64,000 nt of DNA from Ornithinimicrobium cerasi. Lineage in GTDB: Bacteria; Actinomycetota; Actinomycetes; Actinomycetales; Dermatophilaceae. Location: NCBI RefSeq assembly GCF_003702705.1, contig NZ_QZMN01000003.1, positions 1 to 64,000 of the forward strand. Reading direction: 5' to 3'. A program made the translations under genes and the position numbers. The notes beneath the pieces are model-generated. The model ran no database searches and had not been told where the DNA came from. It saw nothing but the letters and a program-made list of their open reading frames with translations. This document shows positions 46,582 through 53,049 of the stretch, in pieces; the first letter of the stretch is position 1; each line of letters begins with the position of its first letter.

Positions 46582-47241
46582 ATGAGCACCGAGCGCCACG
46601 AGGACGGCTCCGGCCTGGTCGACCCGAACCCCTCCTCACCGCGGCGGCCGACGACCCTGTGGCCGGGGCTGGACGACGTCGAGCACTCGCGGTGGTACGT
46701 CGAGCGGTTCCGGGGGCTGGCCGCGGACGGAGGCGACGTGCAGGGGGAGTCGCGGCTCGTCGACGTCCTCGCACCCAGGGGTGCCCGGCTGCTCGACGCC
46801 GGCTGCGGACCCGGACGCCACGGCGGTCACCTGTCCCGGCTCGGCCACCGGGTGGTCGGTGTCGACATCGACCCCGTCCTCGTCGCGGCCGCGCGGGAGG
46901 ACCACCCCGGCGCGACGTGGCTGGTGGCCGACCTCGTCAGCCTCGACCTCGCGGCGCAGGGGGAGCCGGACGCGTTCGACGGCGCGCTCCTGGCCGGCAA
47001 CGTCATGGACTTCATCCCCGGGCTGCACCGGGCCGAGGCCCTGCTCCGGGTGGCTGCGCACGTGCGACCGGGCGGCTTCGTCCTCCTCGGGTGCCGCACC
47101 GTCCGCGGCTTCACGCCGGAGGAGCTGGACGCGGTGCTCCCGGGCACCGGGTTGCGCCTCGAGCACCGCTTCGCCACCTGGGACCTGCAGCCCTGGGAGC
47201 CCGGGGCCAGCTTCTGCGTCAGCGTCCTGCGCCGCGTCTGA
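46582..47241 (+). CDS. Class I SAM-dependent methyltransferase
   Basis: A 219-residue methyltransferase. LLDAGCGPGRH (70-80) is the SAM loop, VVGVDIDP the acidic end of strand 2, and FDGALLAGNVMDFI motif IV. A disordered 30-residue N-terminus precedes it. Divergent from the phosphotransferase and leaderless by its TACAGT box. The last 23 nt overlap the convergent end of the thioredoxin/CcdA-like gene. Small-molecule substrate likely; identity unknown. Confidence 0.85.
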   Translation: MSTERHEDGSGLVDPNPSSPRRPTTLWPGLDDVEHSRWYVERFRGLAADGGDVQGESRLVDVLAPRGARLLDAGCGPGRHGGHLSRLGHRVVGVDIDPVLVAAAREDHPGATWLVADLVSLDLAAQGEPDAFDGALLAGNVMDFIPGLHRAEALLRVAAHVRPGGFVLLGCRTVRGFTPEELDAVLPGTGLRLEHRFATWDLQPWEPGASFCVSVLRRV

Positions 47242-48607
47242 CGCCCAGGCGGGGCAGGAGGACCCGGTGCACGACCAGCACGACCCCGCTGGCCACCAGG
47301 GCCGTGCCGAACACCGCGAGCGAGGACCCGACACCGCTCATCAGGTCCGGGTCGACGAGCACGACGACCGCGAGCGCGAGCATCAGCATGCCGCCGACGA
47401 GCTTGAGGATGCGGCCGTGCCGCTCCTGCAGGCGCGAGGCGCGCATCGTCACCACCGCGGTGGTGAAGATCGCGATCTCGTCGAGCTGGTAGATGAGCAT
47501 GTAGAGGAGGAGCAGCACCACGAACGTGCCCGCCGACGCCTCCTGCGCGGTGAGCAGGTTGGTCCACAGCAGCGGGAAGCCCGCGGTGCAGCCGAACTCC
47601 ACCAGCGACACTCCCGCGGCCAGCACCGCGGTCGCGCCCACGACCGCCGGCAGGTTGTCCCCCTGCGCCAGGACCCGGCGCATCGCCCGGTAGATGCCAG
47701 GCTTGCGCTCGTCCGCGATCGTGAACGAGAGACCCTGCCTGAACCAGAAGTAGTCCTTGATGCTCACCACCGCGAAGAGCAGCGCCACGAGGGCGACCAG
47801 CACCCGGATCCACGGGGCGAAGGCCACCACGGTGAAGACCGTGAAGAGCCCGGCGATGAACAGCGCGTAGATCGCGGCGGTGACGGCGATGAACGTCAGC
47901 CCGATGATCATCGTGCGGCGGCGCGACCCCGAGTTGAGCGACAGCGCGATGAGCACCGTGAGCACCCACAGGGAGCAGGGGTTGAAGCCGTCGACGAACG
48001 CGATCAGGGCGGTCGAGACCAGGAGCGAGCGCTCCCCCAGGTGGACGTCCCCGACGAGCGGGAGGCGCAGCACGTCGGCGGTGTCGTCCTCGGGCGCGCA
48101 CTGGAAGGGGTTGTCGGCGGTCCCCTCGCAGACCTCCCCGGTGGCCACCGTCCCGGACGTCCCCTCGGGCAGCCGGACGTCGGCGGGGTCTGGGCACCCC
48201 TGGTCCGTGCAGCGCTGCACCTCGGCCTCGATCTGCACGTCGTGCACGCCCTCGCGGAAGCCGACCCAGGCGCGCTCGCCGACGAGGATCACCGGCACGC
48301 CCAGCGCGCGCACGCGGTAGCGCTCCAGAGCGTCGACCAGGCGCGCCCGTCCGGCCGCGTCCTCCCAGACCTCGACCGCGACCAGCCGCATGCCGGGGGT
48401 GCGCGCCTCCAGGTCCTCCAGCCACGGCCCGGTCACCGCGCACACGGGGCAGCCCTCGCCGTAGTAGTACTCGACGACGACCTCGGTCGTCACCTCCTCC
48501 TGCGCCCTCGCGCCCGGCGGGAGCGCGAGGTCGACCGTCAGGAGGGCGAGCACCAGCGCCAGCGCGCCGAGGAGCACGCGCCGGACGAGGTCGGTCCGGC
48601 CCCTCAC
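47219..48607 (-). CDS. Thioredoxin-like domain fused to CcdA/DsbD-like membrane electron carrier
   Basis: A 462-residue protein. A signal peptide or anchor (9-29) leads to an extracytoplasmic thioredoxin-like domain with CPVC (53-56), then a loop with four more cysteines (133, 138, 160, 170), then about seven membrane helices. In the membrane part GFNPC (Cys211) and EFGC (Cys340) are placed like the transmembrane redox cysteine pair of CcdA/DsbD. This suggests reductant is passed across the membrane to the outer thioredoxin domain on one chain, with the outer domain N-terminal. GGGGAGGA lies 7 nt before the GTG start. Role in cytochrome c or envelope protein maturation is inference. Confidence 0.8.
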   Translation of the reverse strand: MRGRTDLVRRVLLGALALVLALLTVDLALPPGARAQEEVTTEVVVEYYYGEGCPVCAVTGPWLEDLEARTPGMRLVAVEVWEDAAGRARLVDALERYRVRALGVPVILVGERAWVGFREGVHDVQIEAEVQRCTDQGCPDPADVRLPEGTSGTVATGEVCEGTADNPFQCAPEDDTADVLRLPLVGDVHLGERSLLVSTALIAFVDGFNPCSLWVLTVLIALSLNSGSRRRTMIIGLTFIAVTAAIYALFIAGLFTVFTVVAFAPWIRVLVALVALLFAVVSIKDYFWFRQGLSFTIADERKPGIYRAMRRVLAQGDNLPAVVGATAVLAAGVSLVEFGCTAGFPLLWTNLLTAQEASAGTFVVLLLLYMLIYQLDEIAIFTTAVVTMRASRLQERHGRILKLVGGMLMLALAVVVLVDPDLMSGVGSSLAVFGTALVASGVVLVVHRVLLPRLGVRRGAGR

Positions 48608-48704: not shown

Positions 48705-49874
48705 CTACCGGTCGACGTCGCCCACGACGAAGAACATCGACCCCAGGATCGCCACCATGTCGGCCACGATCGTCCCCGGGAGCATCTCGCGCAGCACCTG
48801 CACGTTGCTGAACGAGGCCGACCGCAGCTTGAGGCGGTGCGGGGCCTTCTCTCCCCGGCTCACGAGGTAGTAGCCGTTGAACCCCAGCGGGTTCTCGCCC
48901 GCGAAGTAGTGCGCTCCCTCGGGCACCTTGAGGACCTTGGGCAGCTTGGTGCTGACCGGGCCGGGGCCCAGCTCCCGCAGGCGCTCCGTGCACGCCCGCG
49001 CCAGGTCGAGGGAGACGTGCACCTGCTCGGCGAGCACCTCCAGGCGGGCCAGGCAGTCACCGGCCTCGCGGGTGACCACCCGTCCCGGGCCCCCCTTGAC
49101 GAAGAGCTCCCCGTAGGCGAGGTACGGCTCGTCGCGACGCAGGTCGACGTCCAGCCCCGACCCGCGCGCGATCGGGCCGGACACGCCATACCCCAGCACC
49201 TGTCCGAGCTCGAGGACGCCGACGCCCCGGGTCCGGGCGGTGACGATCTCGTTGCCGATGATCATCCCCTCCAGCTCGGGCATCCGGCTGCGCACCTTCT
49301 CCACGGCCGCGTCGACCCGGTCCAGCCAACCCTCGGGCAGGTCGTGCAGCAGCCCCCCGACGCGGGTCGCCATGTAGTGCATCCGCCCGCCGCTGTACTC
49401 CTCCATCACCGCCTGCAGCTCCTCACGCTCGCGGAAGCTGTAGAACATCGGCGTGATGGCGCCCAGCTCCAACGGGTAGGACCCCAGGAACATGAGGTGG
49501 TTGAGGACCCGGCTCAGCTCGGACAGCAGCGTCCTGGCCCAGGTCGCCCGCTCCGGTACCTCCATCCCGAGCAGGTGCTCGACGGTCAGCGCCACCCCCA
49601 CCTCGTTGTTGAACGCCGACAGCCAGTCGTGGCGGTTGGCGAGCACGAGGATCTGGCGGTAGTCCCGCACCTCGAAGAGCTTCTCCGCGCCGCGGTGCAT
49701 GTAGCCGATGACCGGCTCCGCCGCGACGATCCGTTCGCCGTCGACCGTGATGCGCAGGCGGAGCACCCCGTGCGTCGCCGGGTGCTGGGGGCCGATGTTG
49801 AGCACCATCTCCGTGGTGCTCAGCCCGCTCACCCCGGTCGCGCCGAGGGAGACGTCGAGGTCGCGCGTGCTCAC
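48705..49874 (-). CDS. nuoD: Orphan NADH-quinone oxidoreductase subunit D-like protein
   Basis: A 389-residue homologue of the 49-kDa subunit of complex I; full length, with GPQHPATHG (28-36) and the family's closing VVGDVDR. No other nuo gene is in the window. Aligning by hand to Thermus Nqo4: quinone ligand His38 is kept as His35, but Tyr87 is Trp84 and Asp139 is Glu136. [10 protein letters not shown] keeps Arg61, equivalent to Arg85 of bovine NDUFS2, which NDUFAF7 dimethylates. A MidA (NDUFAF7-like) gene ends 10 nt upstream. The GTG is 7 nt after a TAGGGT box that includes the midA stop, so it may be transcribed separately and leaderless. It is probably not an ordinary complex I subunit. 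Confidence 0.9.
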
Positions 49875-49881
49875 CCGGCCC

Positions 49882-49887
49882 ACCCTA
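49882..49887 (-). promoter_or_regulatory. -10 box, leaderless nuoD
   Basis: TAGGGT on the minus strand, then 7 nt, then GTG at 49874. Its first three bases are the midA stop codon. Confidence 0.5.
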
Positions 49888-50889
49888 GCCACGCACCGCC
49901 ACCACCCACCGGAAGGAGCCCAGACCGCCCGGTGCGGTGAGGGCAGCCAGCGCACCCCTGCGGGCCAGGGCCGCCAGGTATGCCGGCGGGTCGGTCCGTG
50001 CGAGCTCGCGCGGCGGCTGGTCGGTCGGGGCGGGGGCGGTCGGGGCGGGGAGGAGGTCACGCAGGACTTCCGACTGGCGGGACACGTGACACCGGGTGAG
50101 ACGGTGATCCACCGTCACGTCCTGGAGCGAGTCCACGGCCACGTGCGCGGTGAGGTCGCAGCTGCCGTCCGGGACCGGCTCGACCTCGCGACCGGAGCGG
50201 AAGCCGGTGAGCGTCCCGTGGTGCGGCCGGTCGGCGCGCGTGTGGCCGTAGTCGACGGCCACCACCACCCCGCGGTCCACCCGTCGCACCAGCTCGGCCC
50301 AGGCGAGGTCGCGCGGGCGCCCGACCTCGGCCCGCAGCACCTCCGGGCCGAGCCAGCGGTCCGCCCAGGCGAGGTCGGGCCCGGCCAGAGGCGCGCCCCG
50401 CCCCTCGGTGCCGTCGGGTGCGACGGTGACCGCACGCCATACCCCGCCGGCGTCCCGCTCCGCGACGGGGCAGGGGACGACGTCGAGCCACTCGTGCGCG
50501 AGAACGAGGGTGTCCCGCAACCCGGTGAGCGTCGGGGGGAGCGCGGCCCCGCCCGGCGAGACCAGCCAGTCGTCCACCTCGAGCCCGTCCGGACGGGCGA
50601 CGACGTCGACGCCGGTGAGGCGCAGGGCGGGTTCGAGCCGCCGGAGGTGACCCAGCAGCTCACCGCGCCCGGTCCCGACGTCCACCACAGCCGGGCACCC
50701 GTGCCGCCGGGCCAGCGCGAGGACCGCCTCGGCCAGCACCTCCCCGGCGCCGGGGACCCCCTGGACCGACGTCGCGAAGTGCTCGCCGGGAGCGGCCCCG
50801 CGGTAGAACCCCCGCTCGCCGTAGAGCGCCTCCTGCCAGGCGACCACCCACGGCACCCGCCGGGCGCGGGGGGCTGGCTCGACGACCAT
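49885..50889 (-). CDS. MidA/NDUFAF7-family protein arginine methyltransferase-like protein
   Basis: A 334-residue SAM-dependent methyltransferase of the DUF185/MidA family. [11 protein letters not shown] (69-79) is the SAM loop, HEWLDVVPC corresponds to the NE-LDA-P motif, VVVAVDYGH is the conserved DYG block, and [16 protein letters not shown] with [12 protein letters not shown] is the family signature near the C-terminus. In animals NDUFAF7 symmetrically dimethylates Arg85 of the NuoD homologue NDUFS2. Here the gene is directly upstream of nuoD on the same strand, which strongly suggests enzyme and substrate. The ATG at 50889 gives the usual N-terminus ([16 protein letters not shown]). Confidence 0.9.
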
Positions 50890-50968: not shown

Positions 50969-52558
50969 ATGGACGTCGTGAGCGTCTCCACCTTCCACCT
51001 CGACCACGACCGCTGCTCGGCGGTCGTGCGGAGCCGGGACCCCCGCTTCGACGGGTGGTTCGTGACCGCCGTGCGCAGCACCCGCATCTACTGCCGGCCC
51101 AGCTGCCCGGCGGTCACCCCCAAGGTGGTCAACATGCGGTTCTACCGCTCGGCGGCCGCGGCCCAGGCCGACGGCTACCGCGCCTGCCGTCGCTGCCGCC
51201 CCGACGCGACGCCCGGCTCCCCAGAGTGGCACGTCCGCGGCGACGTGGTGGCCCGAGCCGTGCGGCTCGTCGCCGACGGGGTGGTCGAGCGCGAGGGGGT
51301 CGGGGGCCTGGCCGCGCGACTGGGCTACTCCACCCGCCAGGTCGAGCGGCTGGTGAGCGCCGAGCTCGGCGCCGGGCCGCTCGCGCTGGCCCGTGCGCAG
51401 CGGGCGCGGACGGCCCGGGTGCTCCTGGAGAGCAGCGGGCTGCCGATGGCCGAGGTCGCCTTCGCGGCCGGCTTCTCCAGCATCCGCTCGTTCAACGACA
51501 CGGTGCGCGCCGTCTACGCCGCCACGCCCACCGAGCTGCGCGCCGCTGCCCGTCGGGGGGAGCGGCCCGTCCCGTCGGGGGTGCGCGGGGCGCCCGGGGT
51601 GACCGGGCAGGGCGCGGTCGAGCGACCCGTCGTCGTGCTGCAGCTCCGGCTGCCCTTCCGCCCGCCGCTGCACGCGGTGAGCCTCTTCGGCCACCTGGCC
51701 GCCACCGCCGTCCCGGGCCTGGAGGTCTGGCGGTCGGGTCGCCTCGCGCGCAGCCTGGCGCTGCCCCACGGCAGCGGCGTCGTGCGGCTGACGCCGCCCG
51801 AGGAGGGCGAGCGGCACGTCGGGACCGAGCTGTGGCTGGAGGACGTGCGAGACCTGCCCGCGGCGATCCAGCGGGTGCGCCGGCTGCTGGACCTCGACGC
51901 CGACCCCGAGGCGGTCGACGCGCACCTGGCCGGCGACCCCCGGCTGGAGCCCCTGGTCCGGGCCCGCCCCGGGGTCCGGCTGCCCGGCACCGTGGAGGCG
52001 TCCGAGCTCCTCGTCCGGGCGGTCCTGGGGCAGCAGGTCTCGACGGCTGCCGCCGCCACGCACACGGCCCGGCTGGTGGGCAGGTTCGGCCGTCCCCTCC
52101 CTTCCCCGCTGCTGATGGACGGTGGACCGACGCACCTCTTCCCGACCGCGGAGGCGATCGCCGGAGCCGACGAGGACCAGCTCCCGGGCCTGCCCTCCAG
52201 CCGACGACGGACGCTCCTCACCGTCGCCGGCGCGCTCGCCGGGGCCGGTCTGGACCTCGGGCCGGGGTCGTCGTGGGAGCAGGCGCGCGCGGACCTGCTC
52301 GCGCTGCCCGGCGTCGGTCCGTGGACGACCGAGATGGTGGCGCTCCGCGGGCTCGGCGACCCCGACGCCTTTCCCGCGACCGACCTCGGGGTCCGCGTCG
52401 TGGCCGGTGCGCTGGGGCTGCCGACCGCCCCCCGGGCGCTCCTGTCCCGGGCGGAGCGGTGGCGCCCCTGGCGCTCCTACGCCGTCCAGCTGCTGTGGGC
52501 CTCCGGCGACCACGCCGTGACGAGGCTTCCCGACCGCCCCACCCAGGAGATGCCATGA
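50969..52558 (+). CDS. alkA: AdaA-AlkA fusion: methyl-sensing regulator and 3-methyladenine DNA glycosylase
   Basis: A 529-residue fusion. The Ada N-terminal zinc domain holds Cys42, Cys46, Cys73 and Cys76 (Cys42 is the likely methyl acceptor from phosphotriesters). An AraC-type helix-turn-helix follows (about 88-190), then an AlkA N-terminal domain (about 215-320) and a HhH-GPD glycosylase with LLALPGVGPWTTEMVALRG and catalytic Asp in PATDLG. It lacks the guanine methyltransferase domain, which is supplied by the overlapping ogt gene. Expected to sense DNA alkylation, activate the pair and remove alkylated purines. A GTG at 50978 is an alternative start. Confidence 0.93.
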   Translation: MDVVSVSTFHLDHDRCSAVVRSRDPRFDGWFVTAVRSTRIYCRPSCPAVTPKVVNMRFYRSAAAAQADGYRACRRCRPDATPGSPEWHVRGDVVARAVRLVADGVVEREGVGGLAARLGYSTRQVERLVSAELGAGPLALARAQRARTARVLLESSGLPMAEVAFAAGFSSIRSFNDTVRAVYAATPTELRAAARRGERPVPSGVRGAPGVTGQGAVERPVVVLQLRLPFRPPLHAVSLFGHLAATAVPGLEVWRSGRLARSLALPHGSGVVRLTPPEEGERHVGTELWLEDVRDLPAAIQRVRRLLDLDADPEAVDAHLAGDPRLEPLVRARPGVRLPGTVEASELLVRAVLGQQVSTAAAATHTARLVGRFGRPLPSPLLMDGGPTHLFPTAEAIAGADEDQLPGLPSSRRRTLLTVAGALAGAGLDLGPGSSWEQARADLLALPGVGPWTTEMVALRGLGDPDAFPATDLGVRVVAGALGLPTAPRALLSRAERWRPWRSYAVQLLWASGDHAVTRLPDRPTQEMP

Positions 52559-53049
52559 AGCACACCCGCGTGACCGTCGACTCGCCGGTCGGGCCGCTCG
52601 CCCTCGTCAGCGACGGGACGAACCTGACCGGGGTCTTCTTCGAGGAGCACCGGCACGCGCCGGGGGACCTCGGCCCCGACACCCCTCTGACCCAGGCGCC
52701 CCCGGTGCTCCGAAACGCGGCGGTCCAGCTCGAGGAGTACTTCCGGGGGGAGCGCCAGGACTTCGACCTGCCGGTGACGGCGGTGGGCACGGACTTCCAG
52801 CGGCGGGTGTGGGCCCTGCTGCGCACCATCCCCTACGGACGCACCTGGTCCTACGGCCAGCTCGCCGTGGCGCTCGGTCAGCCCGGCGCCTCCCGGGCCG
52901 TCGGCCTCGCCAACGGCCGCAACCCCGTGTCCATCGTCGTCCCGTGCCACCGGGTCGTCGGCTCCGACGGCGCCATCACCGGGTACGGCGGAGGGGTGGC
53001 GCGCAAGCAGCAGCTGCTCGACCTCGAACGCGGTGCCGCACTCTTCTGA
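52555..53049 (+). CDS. ogt: Methylated-DNA--protein-cysteine methyltransferase
   Basis: A 164-residue suicide repair protein for O6-methylguanine. The acceptor Cys131 is in IVVPCHRVVG, with the Asn hinge region GLANGRNP before it and the DNA-binding YGRTWSYGQLA helix. The ATG overlaps the alkA stop by 4 nt, making an alkylation-repair operon. Confidence 0.95.
   Translation: MKHTRVTVDSPVGPLALVSDGTNLTGVFFEEHRHAPGDLGPDTPLTQAPPVLRNAAVQLEEYFRGERQDFDLPVTAVGTDFQRRVWALLRTIPYGRTWSYGQLAVALGQPGASRAVGLANGRNPVSIVVPCHRVVGSDGAITGYGGGVARKQQLLDLERGAALF

Follow-up and report, generated by a model that had tools for sequence, protein, structure and literature searches.

The window, the 64-kb stretch of DNA analysed here, carries two adjacent genes on its reverse strand: midA, which encodes a methyltransferase, and nuoD2, which encodes a full-length homologue of the 49-kDa subunit of complex I (Table 1). 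The preliminary description had midA ending 10 nt before a full-length nuoD on the same strand, with no other complex I gene around. The coordinates bear this out, and the window contained no further match to PF00346 (NuoD) or PF00146 (NuoH). The short gap between the two genes suggests that they are carried on one transcript. A promoter scan at the locus returned no site, and the same scan gave a single terminator-like match, inside nuoD2. On the far side of midA, a divergent region encodes an Ada-AlkA fusion (Ada zinc, HTH, AlkA_N and HhH-GPD domains) followed by an O6-methylguanine-DNA methyltransferase. Downstream of nuoD2 lies a gene for a hydrophobic protein with a CPVC motif and no Pfam or NCBIfam match; from the motif we presume that it is perhaps thioredoxin-like.

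Table 1. Features of the midA-nuoD2 locus, in window coordinates.
Feature	Position	Strand	Description
midA	49885-50889	-	334 aa, MidA/NDUFAF7-family SAM-dependent methyltransferase (PF02636, COG1565)
midA-nuoD2 gap	49875-49884	-	10 nt, from midA stop to nuoD2 start
nuoD2	48705-49874	-	389 aa, GTG start at 49874; 49-kDa subunit homologue (PF00346)
NuoD2 His35 codon	49770-49772	-	quinone-site His equivalent by alignment, kept
NuoD2 Arg61 codon (HRG)	49692-49694	-	aligns with mammalian NDUFS2 Arg85; predicted MidA target
NuoD2 Trp84 codon	49623-49625	-	aligns with the quinone-site Tyr (mammalian Tyr108, Thermus Tyr87)
CPVC-motif protein	47219-48607	-	hydrophobic; downstream of nuoD2
Ada-AlkA fusion and following gene	50969-53049	+	divergent from midA
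O6-methylguanine-DNA methyltransferase	52555-53049	+	PF01035

The methyltransferase of the window is a member of the MidA family by both profile and fold. Its product matched PF02636 over residues 125-261 (45.7 bits, cut-off 23.3, E 7.4e-12; Pfam); it had no NCBIfam match, and as a single-sequence query it found no match in the PDB. A profile of 20 relatives reached the Dictyostelium MidA homologue 5ztz (E 2e-43), 1zkd (E 2.8e-56) and 4f3n (E 7.8e-60), and these three solved MidA/DUF185 proteins outscored everything else by far. With the structure model (pLDDT 92), the top six Foldseek entries were all of the COG1565/1zkd/MidA kind, and the match to 5ztz had an E value of 1.6e-14 and a TM score of 0.68 on the query. 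G74 and G76 of the GxG motif, which we take to be the SAM site, were invariant across the 20 aligned sequences, two of whose rows (L061 and L142) are one gene. The genome holds no second copy of PF02636, the window gene being its sole match.

nuoD2 matched PF00346 at 228 bits (cut-off 24, E 1.5e-67; Pfam). Among the NCBIfam models it scored above the cut-off of NF004739 (367 against 360) and below those of TIGR01962 (372.5 vs 459.35) and NF008974 (371.4 vs 522). These scans used a longer mechanical ORF (48705-50060) that overlaps midA; the homologous part begins near 49874. Alignment agreed with the residue count of the preliminary description, in which Arg61 of this NuoD corresponds to mammalian Arg85 and stands 23 residues before the quinone Tyr site, Tyr108 in mammals (the number 108 comes from that description, 85 from it and PMC3750175). 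The position of the quinone site was thus correct, at residue 84, and the residue was not: NuoD2 has Trp there (NRHDW) in place of Tyr. The quinone-site His is kept as His35, which presumably equals mammalian His59. Both the arginine and the tryptophan were present in 80/80 named NuoD2 relatives (the best 80 of at least 521).

We examined midA-nuoD2 linkage in the same 80 top-ranking loci from named genomes, out of at least 521 NuoD2 relatives; the closest named relative among the matches listed was Ornithinimicrobium tianjinense (93%). The genetic coupling of midA and nuoD proposed earlier held up once adjacency was tabulated: midA was present at 76 of the 80 loci, a pairing far above chance. 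It lay upstream in tandem at 54 and in convergent orientation at 21 (Streptomyces and one other actinobacterium), so co-transcription is not general. At one further locus (L216), called 'tandem downstream' with an overlap, the orientation was not assigned. The four loci without midA had an upstream side only 0.6-4.5 kb long. Some pairs were kept close though 0.4-4.5 kb apart.

The preliminary description placed this pair outside any complex I operon and saw in it what was perhaps a separate module, quinone-linked or concerned with assembly. The rest of the genome (3.83 Mb, 87 contigs, 99.99% complete) does not fit that proposal, as it holds two complex I gene sets, both on contig C80, one of which has no D. 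The first, the canonical nuo1 operon (C80:100768-117138), contains all fourteen nuoA-N genes, including nuoD1, the only other NuoD gene of the genome (347 bits). Its A, C, E, F, G, J, K, L, M and N genes were identified by Pfam and nuoI1 by ORF alone; L, M and N share one antiporter model and were told apart by gene order. The second set, nuo2 (C80:69.3-80.6 kb), comprises nuoA2, B2, C2, H2, I2, J2, K2, L2, M2 and N2 (Pfam, NCBIfam), with nuoC2 at L040:10938-11504 and the second NuoH copy, nuoH2, at C80:76055-76966. This stretch gave no match to the genome's own NuoD, E, F or G. Where other lineages have D, between nuoC2 and nuoH2 (C80:77029-78934; L040:9030-10935), this genome has a weak HicB match (22.1 bits vs 21) together with a DUF4097 gene on the opposite strand, and a glyoxalase-like gene. 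Together with nuoD2 of the window, the Nuo2 set amounts to A, B, C, D and H-N without E, F and G, which is an 11-subunit gene content.

The genome-wide search for nuoA-N that had been proposed, with a complete nuo operon missing its own nuoD as the sign of a displaced subunit, thus did find a nuo cluster without nuoD. The cluster is not a complete operon, since E, F and G are also missing. A complete nuo operon without only nuoD was rejected for both sets, nuo1 having nuoD1 and nuo2 lacking D, E, F and G. We likewise rejected nuo1 as an operon in need of NuoD2 for its D subunit, because it carries nuoD1.

The subunits of this genome served as tblastn queries for reading nuo2 regions in other genomes. 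Outside the class Actinomycetes, a NuoD2-type D stood within the order A-B-C-D-H-I-J-K-L-M-N in 11 of the 14 stretches read (L140, L141, L142, L145, L146 and L305-L310; L146 and L309 end within M, and L307 gave no K match). No E, F or G lay inside these 11 operons, the sole G match (L146) belonging to a canonical cluster upstream. In the other three stretches (L143, L144 and L311) D2 had no nuo neighbours. Within Actinomycetes, all four nuo2 clusters read, from this genome (L040), Dermacoccus abyssi (L312), O. tianjinense (L313) and Streptomyces coeruleorubidus (L314), lacked D and had the order A-B-C-H-N. In D. abyssi almost nothing separated the nuoC2 match from the nuoH2 match, and a nuoC2 match was found at L314:8364-8825 in S. 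coeruleorubidus. On the simplest history, nuoD2 would have moved out of the nuo2 operon and either remained beside midA or come to lie there, a direction that we infer from these arrangements.

The D2-type genes inside nuo2 outside the class, together with midA following nuoN in three of these stretches (L140, L141 and L142), point to NuoD2 as the D subunit of Nuo2. Judging from sequence comparison, we put a probability of about 0.8 on the reading that a second complex I, Nuo2, which lacks the NADH-oxidising N module (E, F and G), has NuoD2 as its displaced D subunit, and that NuoD2 has been kept with a MidA that most likely dimethylates Arg61. The Nuo2 subunits, encoded at two loci here, would assemble into one complex, as their co-occurrence and the D-containing operons suggest. 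MidA would act on NuoD2 during assembly, as NDUFAF7 does on NDUFS2, dimethylating Arg61 next to Fe-S cluster N2 before NuoD2 joins NuoB2. Electrons may enter Nuo2 via NuoI2 from a ferredoxin-like donor. A midA-nuoD module standing alone, quinone-linked or for assembly and independent of any complex I, is in our view hardly credible: the window itself, with no other NuoD or NuoH gene, is what one would expect of it, but the genome has a nuo2 without D, a NuoH2-type copy (322-350 bits) was found in all 37 named genomes with NuoD2 that were tested, out of the 80, D2 lies within nuo2 operons outside the class, and the quinone-site Tyr is missing.

The two complexes of this genome differ in the residues at N2. 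NuoD1 has HTG where NuoD2 has HRG, and NuoB1 has AGR where NuoB2 has SGT; Arg83 of Thermus Nqo6 aligns with the NuoB1 arginine. Because NuoD1 has Thr, the sole MidA of the genome has only NuoD2, of the two NuoD proteins, as an Arg85-type target. Nuo1 would accordingly be expected to need no MidA, its N2 arginine being supplied by NuoB1. We then read NuoB genes chosen from the listed rows as adjoining a NuoD of known type (29 + 29 = 58). Arg was present in NuoB at 29/29 genes beside a Thr-NuoD and at 0/29 beside an Arg-NuoD, where the residue was Thr in 26 and Ala or Ser in three, which are hydrogenase-like. In 55/55 Nuo-type NuoD/NuoB pairs read, exactly one partner supplied the arginine. The second NuoB of G062 (L285), which was left out of the 29 as it is not beside its displaced NuoD2, also had Thr. 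These NuoD and NuoB counts are not independent events, since they come mostly from two old paralogous groups. In a NuoD tree built from 75 of the 140 rows, after thinning of most close relatives with a name and removal of fragments <330 aa, the 64 Arg+Trp rows fell on one side of a branch with support 100/100; eight rows had Thr+Tyr (support 100/97) and three Arg+Tyr.

This distribution also bears on whether NuoD2 might instead take the place of NuoD1 in the canonical Nuo1 complex under some condition, as an alternative D subunit adjusted by MidA. In favour of such a swap, NuoD2 covers the full length of the 49-kDa subunit and shares 40% identity with NuoD1, and 36 of the 37 NuoD2-bearing named genomes tested have a NuoH1-type copy (385-416 bits). 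Such a swap would, however, set Arg61 against the NuoB1 arginine, giving two arginines at N2, a combination found in 0 of the 58 NuoB genes read, and the NuoD2-type D of other lineages lies within nuo2 operons. The exception among the 37, D. abyssi (L187, L312), has NuoD2 and nuo2, a NuoH of the NuoH2 type only, and no NuoD1 or NuoH1 match in an assembly whose completeness is not established; it is possibly a Nuo2-only organism. We regard the swap as very unlikely.

We next compared MidA with the type of NuoD across the phylum (246 genomes), where PF02636 was present in 76. Arg- and Thr-NuoD were typed with motif patterns at the DNA level and, in three genomes, by direct reading of the sequence. 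The patterns missed the Arg-NuoD of G052, G064 and G180, and the direct reading covered these three MidA genomes only, not motif-less genomes without MidA. Pattern matches were dropped as non-NuoD by their letters or place in two sets (G107:C13, G223, G144, G044, G209 and G041; G174, G066, G187, G163, G041 and G011). MidA was found in 72 of the 117 Arg-NuoD genomes, 2 of the 40 with Thr-NuoD only (G092 and G208) and 2 of the 89 in which no motif was found (G178 and G242, 83% and 68% complete). Arg-NuoD thus accompanied MidA in 72 of the 76 MidA genomes, and 25 of the 26 families with MidA included a genome with both. A Fisher test gave p 2.6e-22, a value that ignores ancestry and is not usable as a probability; the labels cluster by ancestry, so genome counts overstate the number of independent events. 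Of 69 genomes in which the patterns placed both genes, 41 had MidA and Arg-NuoD on one contig and 38 had them within 12 kb, the latter spread over 13 families. The remaining 28, including the six-contig G081, had the two genes on separate contigs, so the linkage is not universal. Among 14 control genomes, three had a PF02636 match, and E. coli had none. The text available of PMC3750175 gives the E. coli NuoCD arginine as unmethylated and the Paracoccus arginine as dimethylated.

Several of these figures would also suit a MidA that acts on another protein and whose place beside nuoD2 is inherited gene order with no functional link. Gene order can be old, and the genes are on separate contigs in the 28 genomes above. 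The 45 of 117 Arg-NuoD genomes without a PF02636 match, six of which had their nuo2 operon read (L305-L310), indicate that methylation is not indispensable for the NuoD arginine; G092 and G208, with PF02636 and Thr-NuoD only, indicate that some MidA relatives act on a different substrate or have no function connected with NuoD. We nevertheless consider this explanation unlikely. The pair stays close in both the tandem and the convergent arrangement, even across intervening kilobases, is kept though nuoD2 lies outside the nuo2 operon, and recurs within 12 kb in the 13 families. The family's known substrate, moreover, is the same residue: NDUFAF7 methylates NDUFS2 Arg85 during assembly, a step needed for complex I to assemble, according to the text available of PMC3829151.

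The pairing of NDUFAF7 with NDUFS2 in human, and of MidA in Dictyostelium, shares with the window its methyltransferase family, substrate family and arginine position; Pichia, Yarrowia and Paracoccus likewise have the NDUFS2-type arginine in dimethylated form. Unlike that system, the actinobacterial midA is genetically linked to a NuoD2 paralogue assigned to a complex without N module, and the canonical NuoD1 is without the arginine. Orphan nuoD2 and N-module-less nuo2 are already known in Streptomyces, and the arginine switch is known between species. The Streptomyces texts, as far as available (PMC3765725, PMC8388888), likewise describe a second complex I without N module and with nuoD2 apart. 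They list nuoA2, B2, D2 and H2-N2 and no nuoC2, with nuoJ2 marked as a pseudogene in PMC8388888, whereas this genome has a nuoC2 and S. coeruleorubidus gave a match to it; the same portions of these texts are silent on MidA, on the Arg/Thr switch and on the Trp. The 11-subunit complex I (no NuoE, F or G) has the same gene set, A-D and H-N; it differs in that D is at another locus here and NuoD2 relatives have Trp for the quinone Tyr. For the switch, the available text of PMC8042128 compares Thermus Nqo4/Nqo6 with Yarrowia NDUFS2/NDUFS7, Thr-NuoD going with Arg-NuoB or Arg-NuoD with Thr-NuoB, and the two side chains occupy the same space near N2. Here, in contrast, a single genome encodes the two arginine states, one per complex, and MidA goes with the complex whose arginine is in NuoD. 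In the literature listings and passages covered, no paper connected MidA with nuoD2 or with Actinomycetota, or reported both arginine states in one genome.

In the part of PMC8042128 available, changing the Yarrowia arginine led to loss of the N2 cluster, and removal of the methylase was named as the means of telling the effect of the modification from that of the residue. This gene pair bears on the role of arginine dimethylation for N2. One cell encodes two complexes, one with a NuoB arginine and no methyltransferase target, the other with a NuoD arginine and a separately deletable midA. Other lineages have the same nuo2 operon without midA, which adds to this natural comparison for the purpose of the predicted methylation.

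Trp at the quinone-Tyr position was found in every NuoD2-type sequence read, that is, in 55 distinct Arg+Trp regions (the loci with a Trp NuoD2 being the window, L007-L036, L140-L146 and L147-L226). We tentatively suggest that the complex-I-like pumps of the Actinomycetota NuoD2 clade might have kept a methylated N2 arginine and exchanged Tyr for Trp, with another route of quinone reduction or another acceptor and with MidA tuning N2, a doubtful proposal at present. The seven distinct regions with Arg+Tyr were other NuoD types.
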